Shown: positions 31,408 through 39,257 of the stretch, piece after piece
How positions within the stretch are numbered: the first letter of the stretch is position 1
Layout: the number at the start of each line of letters is the position of its first letter
From: Pseudomonadota bacterium
Lineage (GTDB): Bacteria; Pseudomonadota; Gammaproteobacteria; Burkholderiales; Burkholderiaceae_C
DNA: 44,368 nucleotides
NCBI GenBank assembly: GCA_021815805.1
Contig: JAKAZQ010000028.1
Coordinates: forward strand, 1-44,368
Reading direction: 5' to 3'
Notes under the pieces: model-generated
Database searches by the model: none
Seen by the model: the letters and a program-made list of their open reading frames with translations, nothing else
Told to the model about the DNA's origin: nothing
Made by a program: the position numbers and the translations under genes

Positions 31408-32430
31408 ATGGAGCTGACGATCCAGCGGGATGTCGAACTGGGAGACCTGAACACGTTCAGGGTGCCGGCGCGCGCGCAGCGCCTGGTGCGCATCGAGCAT
31501 GCGGCGCAGGTTCGCGCAGTGGTGGATCACCCCGAACTCGGCCTGTTGCCCAAGCTCGTGCTGGGCGGCGGCAGCAACACCCTGCTTGCGCGCGATCCGC
31601 CCGGGGTGGTGCTGCGCATCGAGATCGGCGGCGTGCGCGTGCTGGACGACGACGTGCAGGCCACGCGCATCGAGGCCGGCGGCGGCGTCGGTTGGCACGA
31701 TCTGGTGTGCTGGAGCCTGCGCCAGGGCTTCGCCGGTCTCGAGAACCTGGCCCTGATCCCGGGGACCGTGGGGGCCGCGCCGGTGCAGAACATCGGCGCC
31801 TACGGCATGGAACTGGCGGAGCGCTTCGAATCCCTCGATGTCGTCGACCTGACCACCGGGCGCGCCGCCACGCTCGACCGCGCGGCCTGTCGCTTCGGGT
31901 ACCGCGACAGCCTGTTCAAGCGCGCGCTGGCCGGCAAATCCGTGATCACGCGCGTGCGCCTGCGCCTGCCCAAGCCGTGGCGCGCGCAACTCGGCTACGC
32001 GGAATTGCAGCGCCACCTGGAGCGCGCCGGCGTGCGCGATCCAGCGCCGCAGGAGGTGTTCGATGCCGTGTGCGCGATCCGCCGCGCCAAGCTGCCCGAC
32101 CCGGCGCGCCTGGGCAACGCCGGCAGCTTTTTCAAGAATCCGGTGGTCAATCGCACCATCCGCAACGAGATCCTCGCGGAGTTTCCCGAGATCGTGAGCT
32201 ATCCGCTGGAAGACGGGACCTACAAGCTGGCCGCGGCGTGGATGATCGACGCCTGCGGCTGCAAGGGGCGCAGCGTGGGCGCGGCGGCCGTCGACGAGCG
32301 CCATGCCCTGGTGCTGGTCAACCACGGCGGCGCCAGCGGCGCGGACATCCTGGAACTCGCCGCACAGGTGCGCGAGGCGGTGCGCGCGCGCTTCGGCATC
32401 GAGCTCGAGTACGAACCGGTGGTGGTCTGA
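31408..32430 (+). CDS. murB: UDP-N-acetylenolpyruvoylglucosamine reductase
   Basis: A 340-residue type I MurB, an FAD enzyme that makes UDP-MurNAc for peptidoglycan. FAD-binding blocks are LPKLVLGGGSNTLL and LALIPGTVGAAPVQNIGAYGME. The catalytic Ser is in GNAGSFFKNP and the proton-shuttle Glu is expected near the C-terminus (GIELEYEP). The length equals E. coli MurB (342). The start at MELTIQRDVEL is preferred over an ATG 12 codons upstream, which adds unrelated sequence. A hairpin just downstream terminates the opposite strand. Confidence 0.97.
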   Translation: MELTIQRDVELGDLNTFRVPARAQRLVRIEHAAQVRAVVDHPELGLLPKLVLGGGSNTLLARDPPGVVLRIEIGGVRVLDDDVQATRIEAGGGVGWHDLVCWSLRQGFAGLENLALIPGTVGAAPVQNIGAYGMELAERFESLDVVDLTTGRAATLDRAACRFGYRDSLFKRALAGKSVITRVRLRLPKPWRAQLGYAELQRHLERAGVRDPAPQEVFDAVCAIRRAKLPDPARLGNAGSFFKNPVVNRTIRNEILAEFPEIVSYPLEDGTYKLAAAWMIDACGCKGRSVGAAAVDERHALVLVNHGGASGADILELAAQVREAVRARFGIELEYEPVVV

Positions 32431-32441
32431 GCCGGGGCACG

Positions 32442-32466
32442 AAAAAAGGGGCGCCGCAGGCGCCCC
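32442..32466 (-). terminator. Intrinsic terminator of the rhodanese transcript
   Basis: A perfect 8-bp stem, GGGGCGCC / GGCGCCCC (32448-32455, 32459-32466), with loop GCA, is followed on the minus strand by six T residues. It lies 24 bp after the rhodanese stop and so ends the leftward sulfur-locus transcript. Confidence 0.92.
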
Positions 32467-32490
32467 TCGGAGTGGACTGCGGCGCCTCGA

Positions 32491-33477
32491 TCAGTCGGGC
32501 AGGCCGACGGTCGGGTTGCCCAGGTGGGTCCATTCCGTCATCGAGCCGGTGTACAGGCGTGTCTTGTGGTTGCCGAGGATCTCGTGGTCGACGAACCACG
32601 CGCCCGACGCCAGGTGACCGGTGTTGCAGTAGGTGATGGTCGAGGCGCCCTGCTGGATGTTGAACTCGGCGTAGATCTTGCGGTAGTCGGCCGCGCTCAT
32701 GAACTCGTGCGCGGCACCGACCGGCTTGACGATGGCGTCGGTCGGGAACGAGCGGGCGCCGGGCAGGTGGCCGCCGGCGGCGTCGACCGGGCGCTTCACG
32801 ACGATGCCCAGGAATTGCTGCGTCGGACGCGCGTCCACGAATTGATCGCCGCCGTGGCGCAGGCCGGCCTTGACCTGGTCGAGGGTGGCCAGCAGCTCGT
32901 TGTCGGCGCCGCTCGCCTTCCAGTCACCGCGCGACGCGCTGATCCTGGCGGTGCTCACCGGCAGTCCCTGCTGCAGCCAGGCGTTGACCCCGCCGTTCAG
33001 GATCGCCACCTGATTCGAGGGTTCGCCGAAGTAGCGCAGCTGGAAGTACAGGCGCGTGGCCATGTCCATCGAGTTCACGCTGTCGCCGGTCGGCACGATG
33101 ACGATGGGCTTGCCGCGGTTCAGGCCGGCGTCGTCCATGACCTTGGTGAAGTACTCGGCGCTGGGAAGCTGCGCCACGATCTTCTTGCCGTCGATGGTCT
33201 TGTTGACGCGGATCTTGCCGAAGTCGACCGCCACGGCGCCCTCCAGATGGCCGCCGGTCTGCACCAGCTTCTTCTCGCCGGTCTTTTTCGCGACCTCGAA
33301 TCGGGGCGCGCGCGTCAGCGACGCCGCGTCCTCGCGCACGTCGAGCACGGTGACTTCGCCGAGGTGCTGATGCAGCCACTGCGGCGTGACCAGCGGGCCG
33401 GGCAGCGAGGCGGCGGACGCGAACGGCGCGAATGCGCCGACGGCGCCTACAGCCAGCAGATACTTCAGGTGCTTCAT
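32491..33477 (-). CDS. Periplasmic two-domain rhodanese (thiosulfate sulfurtransferase)
   Basis: A 328-residue protein with a clear signal peptide (MKHLKYLLAVGAVGAFAPFASA, cleavage after residue 22). Two rhodanese domains follow. The first (about 30-175) has VLDVRED and the GHLEGAV block but no cysteine at the active loop. The second (about 190-328) has GGHLPGARSFP and the catalytic C284 in TYCNTGHLASG. It would move sulfane sulfur from thiosulfate or a persulfide to a thiophilic acceptor in the periplasm. A strong ribosome site (GGAGGAG) precedes the ATG. It is the last gene before a terminator, downstream of the DUF6969-like, NPCAP and YeeE genes. Confidence 0.94.
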   Translation of the reverse strand: MKHLKYLLAVGAVGAFAPFASAASLPGPLVTPQWLHQHLGEVTVLDVREDAASLTRAPRFEVAKKTGEKKLVQTGGHLEGAVAVDFGKIRVNKTIDGKKIVAQLPSAEYFTKVMDDAGLNRGKPIVIVPTGDSVNSMDMATRLYFQLRYFGEPSNQVAILNGGVNAWLQQGLPVSTARISASRGDWKASGADNELLATLDQVKAGLRHGGDQFVDARPTQQFLGIVVKRPVDAAGGHLPGARSFPTDAIVKPVGAAHEFMSAADYRKIYAEFNIQQGASTITYCNTGHLASGAWFVDHEILGNHKTRLYTGSMTEWTHLGNPTVGLPD

Positions 33478-33530
33478 GGTTCTCCTCCGGGTTGAACAAA
33501 AGCGGGCGGCATCCGAGGGCAGCGGCATGT

Positions 33531-34301
33531 TCAGGCCACGCCGGCGTCCTGCAGAAGGCGAAACTGCCAGCCCAGGTCGACCCGGCACTGGCTCACGATA
33601 TGGGTGCGGCGGTCTTCCAGCACGCGTGACGCGGGCTGGCGCAGCAGGCGTTGGTCGATGCGGCGGTCGCGCTGGCGTACCACCTCGCGGATCTGCGGGG
33701 CGAACAGGCAGGCCATGTGCTGCAGCCAGTCGGCGACGCGGCGCGGGCGTGCCTGCGCGAGATCCAGGCGCCGCAGTGCCTGCAGGATCCAGCGCGCGTT
33801 CTCCCAGTGTTCGGCGGTGACCCAGCGATTGGTCGTGAACACGCGCATCGGCCATCCCCGATCATCCACCGACAGCGCGAACAGGTGCGCGTGGCCGGCC
33901 TCGCCGGCGGCCGCGCGCGGGCGCGGCGCGAACACGTGAAAGTGGCCGTGCTCGCCCGCGGCGCGCTGCGACGCTGCATGCGCGTGGTAGTAGAAGCGAT
34001 AGCCGCTGCGTCCATCCCGCGCATCCCCGTGCGGGTAATGCTCCCACTCGCTGAAGGCGGTCTGCCTGCCCAGCACATCGGCCAGCAGTCCGCGCCCACC
34101 GCGCGCGCTGTGCTGCAGATGCCGCAGCGTGGCCTGCACGGAGTCGTCCAGTGCCTGGCGCGGCGATCGACGCAGATCCTCGAGCAACGCCGCGCGCGGG
34201 ATGCGAATCAGGGAGCTCAAGGTGGGGGCGTGCCAGGCGGAGGGAAAGGGTGCGCTGCGACGTGGCCACCGCGGTGCGCGCGCGCCGGGGCGGGCGCGCA
34301 C
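33531..34301 (-). CDS. His-rich protein resembling DUF6969 (function unknown)
   Basis: Up to 256 residues. The core has a striking His/Glu/Asp cluster: EWEHYPHGDARD (85-96), YYHAHAAS (104-111) and EHGHFHVF (117-124), then MRVFTTNRWVTAEHW (152-166). I recall this pattern from the uncharacterised DUF6969 family; no activity is known. The clustered His suggests metal binding (inference). There is no signal peptide, so it is probably cytoplasmic. The start is uncertain: GTG 34301 lies within a hairpin and gives an Arg/Pro-rich leader, while TTG 34220 would start near the conserved part. It lies between the NPCAP peptide gene and the rhodanese gene (53 bp). Confidence 0.68.
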   Translation of the reverse strand: MRARPGARAPRWPRRSAPFPSAWHAPTLSSLIRIPRAALLEDLRRSPRQALDDSVQATLRHLQHSARGGRGLLADVLGRQTAFSEWEHYPHGDARDGRSGYRFYYHAHAASQRAAGEHGHFHVFAPRPRAAAGEAGHAHLFALSVDDRGWPMRVFTTNRWVTAEHWENARWILQALRRLDLAQARPRRVADWLQHMACLFAPQIREVVRQRDRRIDQRLLRQPASRVLEDRRTHIVSQCRVDLGWQFRLLQDAGVA

Positions 34302-34304
34302 CGC
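34271..34304 (-). other. Stable hairpin just after the NPCAP gene
   Basis: An 11-bp perfect inverted repeat, GCGGTGCGCGC / GCGCGCACCGC (34271-34281, 34294-34304), with a 12-nt loop, begins 6 bp beyond the NPCAP stop. It has no T-tract. It could protect the peptide mRNA or reduce read-through to the DUF6969-like gene. It covers that gene's first possible GTG start. Confidence 0.6.
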
Positions 34305-34310
34305 GATGGC

Positions 34311-34571
34311 TCAGTTCGACGGCGCGCAGGGGTTGCTGGACTTCTTGTGCGATTCCTGGGACGCCGGAGCGCAGGGATTGCCCGCCTTTGCCTTGGACAC
34401 GCCGCTCGACGGCGCGCAGGGATTGCTCGGTGCGCAGGGGTTGCCGGCGGCGTGGGCGACGGCGATGCCCGACACGCTGCTCAGCGCCTGCGGCATCGGC
34501 GCCACGGCGGCGGCCGCCAGCGCCAGCACCGGCAGCGCCTGGGAAAGTTTGATGCGGGAAGACTTGGCCAT
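34311..34571 (-). CDS. Small secreted Cys-repeat (NPCAP) protein
   Basis: An 86-residue precursor. Residues 1-41 look like a Sec signal (basic start, LPVLALAAAAVAP core, AHA before the cut). The mature part of about 45 residues has four NPCAP motifs, with cysteines at 46, 52, 67 and 82, separated by Ser/Lys/Ala linkers, and one His. It has no aromatic residue and little bulk hydrophobic residue, so it is probably unfolded or organised by metal, disulfides or modification. The ATG is fixed by AAGGAG upstream. I know similar NPCA-rich predicted proteins in sulfur- and methane-oxidising bacteria, without assigned function. The next gene is the His-rich DUF6969-like protein. Confidence 0.85.
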   Translation of the reverse strand: MAKSSRIKLSQALPVLALAAAAVAPMPQALSSVSGIAVAHAAGNPCAPSNPCAPSSGVSKAKAGNPCAPASQESHKKSSNPCAPSN

Positions 34572-34796
34572 ACGGATCTCCTTCAATGGGTTGTGGCAGG
34601 ACGAGGCGGGGAATCGGGCGGACATCGGGGTCGACTGCACGCCGGCAACGGCGCGCGTCACGCTGGGGCCGCGGGGCGGATCAGGCGGCGATCCGGCGGC
34701 CGCGCCGCCCGTTCGCGACGCATCGTGTCGGCCATTTTCATGCTACCGGGGCCGCAGCTGCGCCGGGCTCGCGGCGCGGCTGCCGCTTGATGGCCG

Positions 34797-35375
34797 TCAA
34801 GTCGTGCTCCGACCCCGTGCCGCGGAGGCGCCGCGGGTCAGGAAGCCGACGACCAGCAGCGTGGCCAGCAGCAACCCCCAGACCAGCCAGGTCGGCAGGT
34901 GCAGGAACTGCTGCAGGGTCAGCGAATCGGGCCCGCTCTGCTTCCACGCCCAGGCCTTGATGGAGGCGAATCCGGCGTTGAACCCGAGCGTGCCCAGCAC
35001 GATGCCGACGAGGAACAGCAGGCCGTCCAGGCGGCCCGAGCAGACAGCCGCCATCGACGTGCCGGGACAGTATCCGCCGACCGCCATGCCGACGCCGATG
35101 AGCACGCCGCCCAGGCTGCTGCCCCACAGGAACACCGAGGGCACGAACAGATCCTTGGCCACGTTCACCATGCCCAGCGCCTGCATCAGGTACAGCCCGC
35201 CCGACGAGACGACGATGGCGGTGAACATGACCTTGAAAACCGCCCAATCCTGGAAGCGCAACTGCGCGGTCAGCTTGCACGCGCTGCCGAAACCGGCGTT
35301 TTCCAGGACGTAGCCGAACACCATACCCAGCACAATGCCGGACAGCGGGCCTGTATACCCCAGGGGAAAGCTCAT
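34797..35375 (-). CDS. YeeE/YedE-family transporter, second half
   Basis: A 192-residue membrane protein with about five helices. It is one half of the YeeE/YedE (TsuA-like) fold, in which conserved cysteines pass thiosulfate through the membrane. Cysteines C33 (GFGSACKL), C103 (GGYCPGTSMAA) and C112 (AAVCSGRLDG) lie in the expected contexts. The start overlaps the stop of the preceding half-transporter gene by 4 bp (ATGA), so both should be made together. Fused versions are about 350-400 residues, the sum of these two. Thiosulfate or other sulfur-compound uptake is likely from family and context. Confidence 0.87.
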   Translation of the reverse strand: MSFPLGYTGPLSGIVLGMVFGYVLENAGFGSACKLTAQLRFQDWAVFKVMFTAIVVSSGGLYLMQALGMVNVAKDLFVPSVFLWGSSLGGVLIGVGMAVGGYCPGTSMAAVCSGRLDGLLFLVGIVLGTLGFNAGFASIKAWAWKQSGPDSLTLQQFLHLPTWLVWGLLLATLLVVGFLTRGASAARGRSTT

Positions 35376-35878
35376 TTCCAGAGTCCTTTGGTGAGGGTTC
35401 CGAACACGACGCCGGCGACGAAGAATCCGACCAGGAACAGGAATCCGGCCGCCGCCAGCGTGGCCGCGCCGGACAGGCCGAGGCCGCTGGTGCAGCCCAG
35501 CGACAGGCGGGCGCCGAAACCGGAGGCCACGCCGCCGACCAGCGCCAGCAGCAGACGCAGGCCGCGTCCGGCGCGCGCCGGACCGTCGACCTGCCAGCGG
35601 AAGCGACCGGCGAGCACGCTGCCGGCGAGCGCGCCGATGGCCAGGCCGACCACCTCCCAGGTGATCCAGTGGTTCATGCCGGCGCGGAACAGGCTGTGCA
35701 GGTAGGTGCCCTCGGCCACCGTCGAGGCCGCCAGGTGCCCCGCGGCCGCCGCGGTGGCCAGCGTGGTGGCCCCGGTGACGCCGTAGCCGTTGCCGGTGAC
35801 GAGGAAGGTCGCCAGCAGGCCGAGGCCGAGCAGGACGCCCGCCACATACGGGTTCCAGAGTGGACGTGGGGTGCGCAT
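35372..35878 (-). CDS. YeeE/YedE-family transporter, first half
   Basis: A 168-residue membrane protein with four to five helices. RLSLGCTSGLGLSGAATLA (124-142) carries C129 in the 'GCTSG..LSG' signature of the YeeE/YedE family. It starts at MRTPRPLWNPYVAG, 11 nt after a GAGGAG site; upstream open codons are not hydrophobic. With the following gene it forms a split transporter, arranged like the PmpA/PmpB pairs of other bacteria. It is divergent from sqr, suggesting that imported or exported sulfur is handled together with sulfide oxidation. Confidence 0.87.
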   Translation of the reverse strand: MRTPRPLWNPYVAGVLLGLGLLATFLVTGNGYGVTGATTLATAAAAGHLAASTVAEGTYLHSLFRAGMNHWITWEVVGLAIGALAGSVLAGRFRWQVDGPARAGRGLRLLLALVGGVASGFGARLSLGCTSGLGLSGAATLAAAGFLFLVGFFVAGVVFGTLTKGLWK

Positions 35879-36214
35879 GGACGTTCGGGCTCCTCGAGGT
35901 TGTGGCGGCCGGGCGGCGCAGCACACGCCTTCCGGACATTCTGGGGTGAGTATAGGAAATAAATAAAGATGCAGGTGGGGGTATAAGGGTTAATCAGCCC
36001 CGGGGGAACACCAGTGCCGGGCGGTGGCGCGACACGGAAGTTGATGCGTGTCAAGCCGGCGGCGCGATGTGCGCGTTCGCCGGCGATCAGACGTGTGTCA
36101 ATCCGTATGCTTGGCGCTCGCGTGCAAGCCGGTCCTGTTTTGTCCCGACCGGTTCGAACCCGGGCGCACACCGGGACACACACCATCGGTTCCTGCGAGG
36201 AGAGCAAACAAGCC
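35879..36214. promoter_or_regulatory. Divergent control region between yeeE genes and sqr
   Basis: 336 bp without a gene. An AT-rich patch (35950-35995) stands out in this GC-rich genome and contains TATACT on the minus strand (35949-35954) and TATAAG on the plus strand (35982-35987), candidate -10 boxes for the two directions, both without good -35 boxes. An FNR-like palindrome lies at 36041-36054. Confidence 0.5.
36041..36054. promoter_or_regulatory. FNR/ANR-like palindrome
   Basis: TTGATGCGTGTCAA differs from the consensus TTGAT-N4-ATCAA by one base. It lies about midway between the yeeE start (163 bp) and the sqr start (160 bp). It could bind an FNR, ANR or other CRP/FNR-family regulator. 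Confidence 0.45.
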
Positions 36215-37534
36215 ATGGCACACATCGTCATCCTGGGCGCCGGAATCGGCGGCCTGCCCGCCGCCTACGAGGCGCGCGCCATACTCGGCGCGGAGCATCG
36301 CATCACGGTGATCAACAGCGCCGAATACTTCCAGTTCGTGCCGTCGAATCCCTGGGTCGCCGTGGGCTGGCGTTCGCGCGACCAGGTCGTGCTGCCGATC
36401 GCCCCCCACCTGCAGCGCAAGGGCATCGACTTCATCGGCCGCAGCGCGGTGTCGATCGACGCGGACGCCAACACCATCACGCTGCAGGGCGGGGATACGG
36501 TGCAGTACGACTTCCTGATCGTCACCACCGGTCCGAAGCTGGCCTTCGAGGAGATCGAGGGCGCCGGGCCGCACGGCGGCTATACGCAATCCATCTGCAC
36601 CATCGACCACGCCGAGAAGTGCTTCGAGGATTTCCAGCGCCTGTGCGAGCAGCCCGGGCCGGTGATCATCGGCGCGATGCCGGGCGCGAGCTGTTTCGGG
36701 CCGGCCTACGAATACACCATGATCCTCGATGCCGCGTTGCGCAAGAAGCGCCTGCGCAGCAAGGTGCCCATCACCTTCGTCACCGCGGAGCCGTACATCG
36801 GGCACCTCGGGCTGGATGGGGTCGGGGATTCCAAAGGCATCATGGAACACGAGTTCCGGGACCACGACATCCGCTGGATCACCAACGCCAGGACGACACG
36901 CGTCGAGGACGGCAAGATGTACGTCGACGAGCTCGACGGCCGCGGCGAGGTGTTCAAGAAGCACGAATTGCCGTTCCGGCATTCGATGATGCTGCCCGCG
37001 TTCAAGGGGGTCGACGCGGTGGCCGGCGTCGAGGGCCTGTGCAACCCGCGCGGCTTCGTCGTGGTCGACGAGCACCAGCGCAATCCGAAGTACCGCAACA
37101 TCTATTCGGCGGGCGTGTGCATCGCCATCCCGCCGGTGGGGCCGACACCGGTGCCGTGCGGCGTTCCCAAGACCGGGTTCATGATCGAGTCGATGGTCTC
37201 GGCGATCGTGCGCAACCTGGAGGAGGAACTGGCGGGCCAGCAGCCCACGCACAAGGGCACGTGGCAGGCCATCTGCCTGGCCGACTTCGGCACCACCGGT
37301 GCGGCGTTCGCGGCGATTCCGCAGATTCCGCCGCGCGACGTCAACTGGTTCGGCTCCGGGCGCTGGGTGCACCTGGCGAAGATCGCGTTCGAGAAGTACT
37401 TCATGCGCAAGATGCGCACCGGCAACTCGGAGCCGGTGTACGAGAAGTACGTGATGAAGCTGATCGGCTTCGAGCGCCTGCAGGAACGCGTGCTGCATCC
37501 GCGCCGCGCAGCGTCGTCGGGCGGCCCGCACTGA
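36215..37534 (+). CDS. sqr: Sulfide:quinone oxidoreductase
   Basis: A 439-residue membrane-associated flavoprotein oxidising sulfide to sulfane sulfur and passing electrons to quinone. The N-terminal FAD motif is HIVILGAGIGGLPAAYE, with FVPSNPWVAVGWR after it. The three redox cysteines are at C128 (TQSICTIDHAE), C160 (PGASCFGPAYEY) and C354 (QAICLADFG), very nearly the numbering I recall for Acidithiobacillus ferrooxidans SQR (128, 160, 356), so it is a type I-like enzyme. The C-terminal amphipathic part (WVHLAKIAFEKYFMRKM) fits membrane attachment. GAGGAGAG precedes the ATG. The frame is open further upstream, but without similarity. Confidence 0.95.
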   Translation: MAHIVILGAGIGGLPAAYEARAILGAEHRITVINSAEYFQFVPSNPWVAVGWRSRDQVVLPIAPHLQRKGIDFIGRSAVSIDADANTITLQGGDTVQYDFLIVTTGPKLAFEEIEGAGPHGGYTQSICTIDHAEKCFEDFQRLCEQPGPVIIGAMPGASCFGPAYEYTMILDAALRKKRLRSKVPITFVTAEPYIGHLGLDGVGDSKGIMEHEFRDHDIRWITNARTTRVEDGKMYVDELDGRGEVFKKHELPFRHSMMLPAFKGVDAVAGVEGLCNPRGFVVVDEHQRNPKYRNIYSAGVCIAIPPVGPTPVPCGVPKTGFMIESMVSAIVRNLEEELAGQQPTHKGTWQAICLADFGTTGAAFAAIPQIPPRDVNWFGSGRWVHLAKIAFEKYFMRKMRTGNSEPVYEKYVMKLIGFERLQERVLHPRRAASSGGPH

Positions 37535-37555
37535 CGCGAACGCACCGAGCCCTGC

Positions 37556-37586
37556 GGGCGACCCGGCGCGTCGCGCCTGGTCGCCC
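37556..37586. terminator. Long hairpin between convergent sqr and ppnP
   Basis: GGGCGACC pairs with GGTCGCCC (37556-37563, 37579-37586), and inside them GGCGC pairs with GCGCC around a 3-nt loop, with one mismatch between the two stems. It fills the 63-bp gap between convergent stops, so it is probably a bidirectional terminator despite lacking a T-tract. Confidence 0.6.
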
Positions 37587-37597
37587 GTGCGGCGGCT

Positions 37598-37918
37598 TCA
37601 GCCGTAGCGGCAGACGTAGTGGTAGGCGGCGTCGCCGGTGCGGATCTCGAAGCGGCTGTTGCCGGGGATCGAGAAGGTCTCGCCTTCGGCGCTGCGGCGC
37701 CATGCCTGCTCGCCGGGCATGCGCCATTCGCACCACCCTCCGGCGCCCAGCATGACTTCCGGCGCCTCGGTGCCGAACACGAGCTGGCTGCCGGCGAGGA
37801 TCACGCCGACGCTCTGGCGGCTGCCGTCGTCGAGCTGCACGGTGTGGCTGACGCAACGTCCGTCGAAATACACGTTGGCGCGCGCCACGACGGCGCCGCG
37901 GATCTGTAGCGGATGCAT
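37598..37918 (-). CDS. ppnP: Pyrimidine/purine nucleoside phosphorylase PpnP
   Basis: A 106-residue small cupin. NVYFDGRCVSHTVQLDDG, SVGVILAGSQLVFGTEAPEVM, FSIPGNSRFEI and the terminal YVCRYG match E. coli PpnP (YaiE, 94 residues), which splits many nucleosides with phosphate. The ATG at MHPLQIRG has GAGGATCG upstream. It lies 25 bp downstream of argG, so it is probably co-transcribed with it, with no obvious functional link. Confidence 0.93.
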   Translation of the reverse strand: MHPLQIRGAVVARANVYFDGRCVSHTVQLDDGSRQSVGVILAGSQLVFGTEAPEVMLGAGGWCEWRMPGEQAWRRSAEGETFSIPGNSRFEIRTGDAAYHYVCRYG

Positions 37919-37943
37919 GGATCGATCCTCGCCTGCCGGCTCG

Positions 37944-39257
<1,314 letters not shown>

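Follow-up and report, generated by a model that had tools for sequence, protein, structure and literature searches.

DUF6969 as a candidate maturation enzyme for exported cysteine-repeat proteins

An NPCAP-repeat peptide and a DUF6969 protein at one locus

The window, by which we mean the whole stretch of DNA analysed (44,368 nucleotides), is the 44 kb contig G000:C68 of a 3.1 Mb genome in 71 contigs, and it carries on its minus strand a gene for a small peptide with NPCAP repeats followed by a gene for a protein of the DUF6969 family. In order of transcription, a YeeE/YedE pair comes first, then the NPCAP precursor, DUF6969 and a rhodanese (Table 1). The peptide begins with a hydrophobic leader that ends near AHAA and continues with four NPCAP motifs holding one cysteine each; its neighbour, encoded directly 3' on the same strand, bears the motifs EWEHYPHGD, YYHAHA and EHGHFHVF. 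Both had been singled out in an earlier note on this DNA, which described an 86-residue precursor with a leader and four NPCAP motifs directly upstream of a His-rich, 'DUF6969-like' protein. Translation confirms this description, and the label proved exact, the protein scoring 188.7 bits against PF22308 (cut-off 27) over profile positions 7-201 of 201. The start of the DUF6969 gene is ambiguous: a GTG would fit the span given in the earlier note and falls inside a hairpin that begins at the stop codon of the peptide, and the other candidate is a TTG further downstream. Signal peptides, as well as the export of the rhodanese, were judged by eye.

Table 1. Features of the NPCAP-DUF6969 locus and its neighbours in the window
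Feature	Position	Strand	Support
NPCAP precursor, 86 aa + stop	34311..34571	-	translation; without Pfam/NCBIfam match
Leader, Sec-type by eye, residues 1-42	34446..34571	-	conserved R-[IL]-K-L-S...MPQAL core
Mature part, four NPCAP motifs (Cys 46, 52, 67, 82)	34314..34445	-	motif pN/pS
Strong RNA hairpin, starts at peptide stop codon, precedes DUF6969, without U-tract behind	34263..34313	-	
DUF6969 protein, proposed maturation enzyme	33531..34220 (TTG; GTG 34301 possible)	-	PF22308 1.2e-55
DUF6969 His/Asp/Glu cluster EWEHYPHGD ... YYHAH ... EHGHFHVF, putative metal site	33933..34049	-	column conservation in A1, A3
Two-domain rhodanese, TYCNTGHLAS active-site loop, export by eye	32491..33477	-	PF00581 9.8e-20
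YeeE/YedE half transporter, N-terminal half	34797..35375	-	PF04143 profile positions 3-147 of 310
YeeE/YedE half transporter, C-terminal half	35372..35878	-	PF04143 profile positions 177-309 of 310
Divergent SQR-like (sulfide:quinone reductase) flavoprotein	36215..37534	+	PF07992 2.8e-16
Terminator-like hairpin 3' of rhodanese	32446..32468	-	consensus match, weak

The NPC motifs and the leader core are constrained

A scan of the peptide against Pfam and NCBIfam up to E = 1 returned nothing, and the NPC peptide found no match among phage families. It is no chance open reading frame (ORF), because an NPC-repeat ORF adjoins DUF6969 in 25 of the 27 same-genus DUF6969 loci, the window included; the two loci without such an ORF are those of DUF6969 paralogs (L029 and L030). 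To describe how the peptide varies we compared 23 of these 25 sequences (L011 and L016 were excluded), which carry three to five NPCAP motifs each, using the ratio of amino-acid-changing to silent differences (pN/pS). The ratio was 0.007 in the motif columns, 0.874 in the spacers and 0.412 in the leader; these values, like those that follow, are simple pairwise counts on related sequences and are descriptive, with no test attached.

Variation within the leader is itself uneven. Across 14 genomes, the core that runs from R-[IL]-K-L-S to MPQAL gave a pN/pS of 0.187 and the remaining leader 0.602, and the rhodanese of the same 14 genomes gave 0.498 for its signal peptide and 0.366 for its mature part. 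This tighter constraint on the leader core than on the rhodanese signal peptide suggests that something in addition to Sec recognises the leader. For the enzymes acting on Buf1, a precursor of the copper-binding bufferins, preliminary results mentioned in the available text of PMC12452194 make the signal peptide part of the recognition sequence.

Further NPC paralogs without an adjoining DUF6969 gene were seen at same-genus loci, L241 and L244 among them, and L241-L244 each encode, close to the NPC paralog, a secreted protein resembling thioredoxin (PF13098, scanned in L241).

The two families occur together and side by side

Among 60 relatives, the genome of the window included, 27 carry DUF6969, 28 the NPC family and 32 neither. 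All 27 DUF6969-positive relatives (G046 being counted on a 36-position fragment only) have the NPC family, as detected with profile A2, against one of the 33 others (G003). In a sample of 398 genomes of the phylum, DUF6969 was present in 20, NPC in at least 62 and both in at least 15 (odds ratio 21), so that NPC peptides accompany DUF6969 in at least 15 of 20 genomes and occur in at least 47 of the 378 others (Fisher P 1.3e-9); counted by genus, the figures are at least 11 of 16 and at least 14 of 197 (P 1.8e-8). Genomes or genera count as independent in these tests, with kinship uncorrected, and the NPC counts in this sample are lower bounds, at most 12 candidates having been scored per genome. 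Profile A2 was built mostly from peptides adjacent to DUF6969, and its sensitivity may lean that way. A third sample, the order of G075 (61 genomes), contains DUF6969 in 46, NPC in 35 and both in 34; here NPC is found in 34 of the 46 DUF6969 genomes and in one of the 15 others.

Five genomes of the phylum sample have DUF6969 only, and in four of them a cysteine-bearing ORF lies directly upstream of it when the sequence is inspected by eye: an NPC-like one in G301, one with EGCCAA in G146, one with CAAGCA in G433 and a weak candidate in G449. In the fifth, G221, no cysteine-bearing ORF was seen by eye beside DUF6969.

Physical adjacency was then counted in a way that does not presuppose NPC, a cysteine-repeat ORF being any frame with four or more copies of one Cys-containing tripeptide inside 60 residues. 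Such an ORF lies within 1.5 kb of DUF6969 in 73 of 127 loci, and extending the distance up to 4 kb gains none; beyond 4 kb, the same loci hold 2 cysteine-repeat ORFs in 793 kb, and chance would account for about 1.2 loci. The 127 loci are not independent, as 26 belong to the genus plus one close relative and 79 are alphaproteobacterial or similar contigs. The count includes L080, an apparent chance match, and the fragmentary G046; L138 was dropped (its DUF6969 was missed by the pattern, though NPC ORFs are present there) and L068 was omitted as a duplicate of L053. The two genes can also lie far apart, as in G075, where DUF6969 is at 1.16 Mb and NPC at 3.59 Mb. In G140, the DUF6969 match at the start of contig C27 and the NPC match at the start of contig C31 are each less than 1 kb from the contig end, and may be neighbours split by the assembly.

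DUF6969 is constant while the cysteine repeats vary

Close inspection of the loci reveals that DUF6969 is the constant part of the partnership and that the repeats beside it vary: NPCAP, NPCAAK, NPCNPCAAK, NPCGPKK, PCAAKK (G388), CGAAK (G419:C4), CAAGCA (G433) and EGCCAA (G146). Some of these repeats form small proteins; others sit on a cytochrome c domain of the SoxA/TsdA type (L037, L040 and L067) or, near DUF6969, on a cytochrome P460 domain (L111 and L139). The CGACGA (CGA-repeat) proteins beside DUF6969 in L094 and L130 resemble the P460 kind (by resemblance, unscanned).

One family of the phylum, f57, has NPC proteins in a different setting. In all 15 of its fetched regions NPC proteins, NPC-cytochromes among them, stand beside a multihaem cytochrome, and DUF6969 was not found in the sampled f57 genomes or in those 15 regions. 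The NPC proteins of L207-L219, L223 and L224 are in many cases carried on cytochromes of the SoxA/TsdA type (one scanned). A radical SAM protein with DUF3641 lies near NPC in seven f57 regions (one scanned), a methyltransferase does so in seven, and a DUF3641 radical SAM protein also occurs near the G419:C4 locus; this protein may be a further tailoring enzyme, or its presence a coincidence. MNIO, the enzyme family of bufferin operons, was considered as an explanation for NPC proteins lacking DUF6969 and set aside, there being no MNIO match in the fetched NPC regions of f57.

Alphaproteobacterial DUF6969 loci have neighbours of their own. A protein of the FGE-sulfatase type is encoded in 35 of 97, often immediately before DUF6969, and a DUF2336 protein (one member scanned) is a common neighbour; genes that we take to be for transporters are also common there. 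The FGE-sulfatase-like protein at L136:8923-9810 (PF03781, one member scanned) looks secreted.

Conserved residues and predicted fold of DUF6969

Six residues of the window protein, H79, H81, E90, H93, H95 and H112 in the numbering of alignment A3 (58 rows), are invariant both there and in A1, an alignment of 28 diverse rows in which they are H54, H56, E65, H68, H70 and H102. In A3, H61, D66 and D69 do not vary either; the first two are kept in 90% or more of the A1 rows, and D69 is not among the listed A1 columns. In the secondary structure of the predicted model, H79/H81, H93/H95 and H112 fall in or beside successive strands, and we infer from this conservation that the invariant His, Asp and Glu residues share a metal site. 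The N-termini inspected by eye are without a clear signal peptide, and DUF6969 is taken to be cytoplasmic.

The model of the window protein has a predicted local distance difference test score (pLDDT) of 85.5 and a predicted template modelling score (pTM) of 0.83, and that of an alphaproteobacterial member 91.3 and 0.88. Foldseek found no solved structure at E <= 0.001 for either (best E 0.56 for the window model and 0.9 for the alphaproteobacterial one) and no viral predicted fold for the window model (best E 0.094), so that the novelty of the fold is judged against solved and viral structures. A search by sequence likewise gave no solved relative, the best match being a tRNA ligase at E 0.08. 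Phage families yielded only E 0.22 for DUF6969 and E 0.39 for the rhodanese, and two DUF6969 proteins were without a match among defence families. A relation to MNIO was tried and rejected (hhalign against a five-sequence MNIO alignment gave E 0.48 and probability 0.1, and Pfam gave no cross-match), as was a relation to rhodanese, for which a search found none.

In the literature searched, outside of which subscription papers lie, no publication was found for DUF6969 by name, and nothing relevant to NPCAP, NPCAAK or NPCNPC repeats stood among the matches listed. A text match for Asn-Pro-Cys together with 'repeat' reportedly concerns the exosporium protein CdeC of Clostridioides difficile.

Both partners meet MNIO operons

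Bufferin precursors, namely Buf1 (DUF2282), Buf2 and Buf_EGKCG/oxazolin, are encoded with an MNIO enzyme (PF05114) and a DUF2063 partner, as described in the available text of PMC12452194. We examined 20 of the 22 same-genus genomes with MNIO (four of them chosen for an NPC match) and found an ORF related to the NPC leader, with PMPAAL or PMPEAL, directly before the MNIO operon in five of the 20. NPCAP occurs four times in the ORF of G016, four times with one KPCAP in that of G015 and once in that of G008; the G012 ORF has an altered NSCAP and that of G005 no motif. A DUF2282 precursor lies between the leader ORF and MNIO in G016 and G015 (by Pfam) and in G008 and G005 (by sequence pattern), and in G012, where the sequence pattern found no DUF2282, the leader ORF directly precedes MNIO. 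DUF2063 then follows in G016 (by Pfam) and in G015, G008 and G012 (by tblastn). The five ORFs (L242, L243, L247, L251 and L256) look like decaying copies of one gene.

The enzyme shows a link of the same kind: at G419:C4 (L063), after genes for MNIO, DUF2063 and DoxX come those for a CGA-repeat peptide and DUF6969. The leader ORFs and this locus together therefore show that the peptide family and DUF6969 each meet the MNIO machinery independently. In the genome of the window, the one MNIO match is on another contig (G000:C29:11649).

Sulfur genes and other features around the pair

The order YedE-YedE-NPC-DUF6969-rhodanese is shared by the window, 13 fetched same-genus loci (chosen from 24 other DUF6969-positive genomes of the genus) and G029, which belongs to another genus of the family. 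The G029 cassette proteins are 36-48% identical to those of the window, and the surrounding synteny is not kept. An NPC-like peptide, DUF6969 and a rhodanese are also adjacent in G301, of the same phylum and another class; among the loci with a rhodanese next to DUF6969 are L239 and L065. The window rhodanese matches PF00581 in two stretches, and the cysteine of its TYCNTGHLAS or TVTYCNTGHLAS loop is present in 14 of 14 sequences.

All 13 fetched same-genus loci retain the divergent SQR-like gene, and the second genus has a weak match (26%) about 5 kb off. Its product matches NF049943 (SQR type III) at 2.7e-25, but far under the family cut-off. The whole neighbourhood, with the SQR-like, PlsY, MurB and ArgG genes, was considered as a system and discarded, since the second genus keeps the five-gene cassette only.

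Between the peptide and DUF6969, the 94 nt from 34313 to 34220 fold at -51.8 kcal/mol (z -4.34), an energy that 0 of 200 shuffled sequences reached, and the 100 nt past the peptide stop in 30 loci fold at -20.7 to -65.3 kcal/mol (no shuffle control there). An Rfam search of 32000-38000 gave no match. A hairpin at the stop codon would fit more peptide than enzyme being made. The terminator consensus has 2 matches in 32300-36300, with 1.7 expected in shuffled sequence, so that the terminator-like hairpin behind the rhodanese is weak.

A model for the pair

That the peptide and DUF6969 are functional partners is very likely. As to what the partnership does, we propose, giving the idea about an even chance, that DUF6969 is a cytoplasmic enzyme dedicated to maturing exported cysteine-repeat proteins, the NPCAP peptide being their representative at this locus. 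Covalent maturation by DUF6969 is the likeliest mechanism, and we would put it neither above nor below the halfway mark; that the end use lies in handling sulfur or copper is a more tentative suggestion, somewhat on the lesser side of it. The precursor would be made in excess over the enzyme, with which the stop-codon hairpin fits. DUF6969, carrying a His/Asp/Glu metal site on a beta-sheet, would recognise the conserved leader together with the N-P-C motifs and modify the cysteines or their backbone. Sec would then export the product, which might bind soft metals in the periplasm or handle thiols or sulfane sulfur there; in the window cassette it would work alongside an exported rhodanese and a sulfur transporter of the YeeE/YedE type.

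Several observations weigh against this proposal. Within the order of G075, 12 of the 46 DUF6969 genomes lack an NPC match, and in 54 of the 127 loci no cysteine-repeat ORF was found up to 4 kb from DUF6969. At least 47 of the 62 NPC-positive genomes of the phylum sample are without DUF6969, at least 42 of them belonging to f57 (outside f57, 15 of 20 NPC genomes carry DUF6969); because such NPC-only genomes occur, the repeats can exist without DUF6969. In G021, a [NiFe]-hydrogenase operon ends with HupH and then a DUF6969 paralog (L051:9630-10439); neither this paralog nor that of L052 (G010) has a cysteine-repeat ORF nearby, and L052, judged by its ORFs, is probably a similar locus. The hydrogenase-operon paralog may point to a wider role in the maturation of cysteines or metal centres. 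In the genus, 15 of the 20 MNIO operons have no leader ORF and DUF2282 intervenes in four of the five that do, so that MNIO need not act on the NPC peptide. Finally, of the loci searched, only those of g1, G029 and G301 have a match to the window rhodanese as the immediate neighbour of DUF6969; the match in L111 is about 4.7 kb off, and a YedE half-match lies about 5 kb off in L141 and L142. As the other DUF6969 loci searched seldom have matches to the cassette genes, the system may be a more general one that is put to sulfur handling locally.

Some of the same observations lend themselves to a different explanation, in which the repeats work unmodified, as a periplasmic metallothionein-like or thiol buffer, and DUF6969 is no covalent enzyme but a metal chaperone or a folding or holding factor, which before export would prevent oxidation of the cysteines or supply them with metal. 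NPC proteins without DUF6969 in at least 42 f57 genomes are what this explanation would expect, as are repeats attached to cytochrome domains of the SoxA/TsdA type and P460, a DUF6969 paralog beside the hydrogenase expression protein HupH, and the many histidines of DUF6969, which would suit a metal carrier. However, the asparagine and proline of the motif are constrained besides the cysteine while the spacers drift, which exceeds what plain metal binding by thiols needs, and the links to MNIO operons favour chemistry. We therefore regard an unmodified repeat as unlikely, though deserving of serious attention.

A second alternative takes its cue from the cassette: the peptide would carry sulfane sulfur, as cysteine persulfides, between the exported rhodanese and YeeE/YedE, and DUF6969 would support it, for example by priming or reducing the cysteines. 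Both YeeE/YedE halves and the rhodanese accompany the pair in two genera, the NPC-like peptide, DUF6969 and a rhodanese are adjacent in a third lineage, an SQR-like gene is nearby and NPC repeats are found on SoxA/TsdA-type cytochromes; SoxT proteins, which belong to the YeeE family, mediate sulfur import according to the available text of PMC11582611. Yet few DUF6969 loci searched outside the genus have these genes, the alphaproteobacterial ones having instead the FGE-like protein, DUF2336 and transporter genes, and for the short PmpAB type of the family the authors of that text found no evidence of a role in oxidative sulfur metabolism in the organism studied. A sulfur shuttle is thus improbable as the whole account, and it is compatible with maturation by DUF6969, not exclusive of it. 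That the two genes merely belong to a common stress regulon (copper, sulfide or redox), their products having no direct contact, would fit their being unlinked in some genomes such as G075 and the variety of their settings, but is very improbable given 73 of 127 loci within 1.5 kb and several different cysteine repeats as neighbours.

Returning to DUF6969 as a maturation enzyme, a broader form of the proposal, which we rate a little short of even, is that DUF6969 is a new family of peptide-modifying metalloenzymes with a fold unmatched among solved structures. It would define a widespread class of Sec-exported, modified cysteine-repeat peptides and proteins (NPC, CGA, CAAGC and EGCC, some on cytochromes), independent of the MNIO/bufferin enzymes in origin and overlapping them in periplasmic metal or sulfur chemistry. 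If true, this would give DUF6969 a first function, name likely substrates in several proteobacterial lineages and establish a second maturation route for exported cysteine-repeat peptides, unrelated in sequence to MNIO enzymes. With some repeats carried by SoxA/TsdA-type and P460-type cytochromes, the modification could concern respiratory proteins too, and not just small peptides.

The ideas of the earlier note come through these results unevenly. It had advised counting how often the two families are adjacent, rare co-occurrence to be held against the cassette, and the counts run the opposite way (27 of 27 relatives, at least 15 of 20 genomes in the phylum, 34 of 46 in the order of G075). 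Its notion of a precursor/maturation cassette is upheld as a partnership by co-occurrence and adjacency, and gives way in its strict form before the NPC-only f57 genomes, the 54 loci without a repeat and the hydrogenase paralog. The likeness it drew to bufferins gains from the five leader ORFs before MNIO operons and from DUF6969 beside MNIO, DUF2063 and DoxX, and loses from the window itself, whose scanned proteins include neither MNIO nor DUF2063. Its suggestion of sulfane sulfur agrees with the local context (split YeeE/YedE, rhodanese and SQR-like genes, the five-gene order in a second genus) and does not carry over to other loci, where sulfur genes are rare.

Comparison with known systems

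The window protein is a clear member of DUF6969 (PF22308), a Pfam entry without a function. The transporter pair corresponds to the short PmpA/PmpB type of YeeE/YedE, in which two half-length proteins match the two halves of PF04143, as the window pair does; the transport role of the latter is predicted, and the description of PmpA/PmpB in the available text of PMC11582611 includes no cysteine-repeat peptide or DUF6969.

The closest parallel is with the bufferins. The NPC peptide is not a DUF2282 protein, having no Pfam match, and, unlike in bufferin operons, no MNIO and no DUF2063 were found among the six window proteins scanned; the terms 'NPC' and 'DUF6969' are absent from the main text of PMC12452194, as far as it was available. 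We do not assign the pair to the bufferins, because MNIO and DUF2063 are missing from the scanned window proteins and no relation of DUF6969 to MNIO was found. Like the bufferins of PMC12452194, some of whose precursors are long, as some are here, the pair has a small precursor with several cysteines and a signal peptide (here a putative one, judged by eye) and the gene order of precursor, then enzyme. By analogy, then, it would work in the manner of a bufferin cassette, with DUF6969, a protein apparently unrelated to MNIO, in the place of the enzyme.

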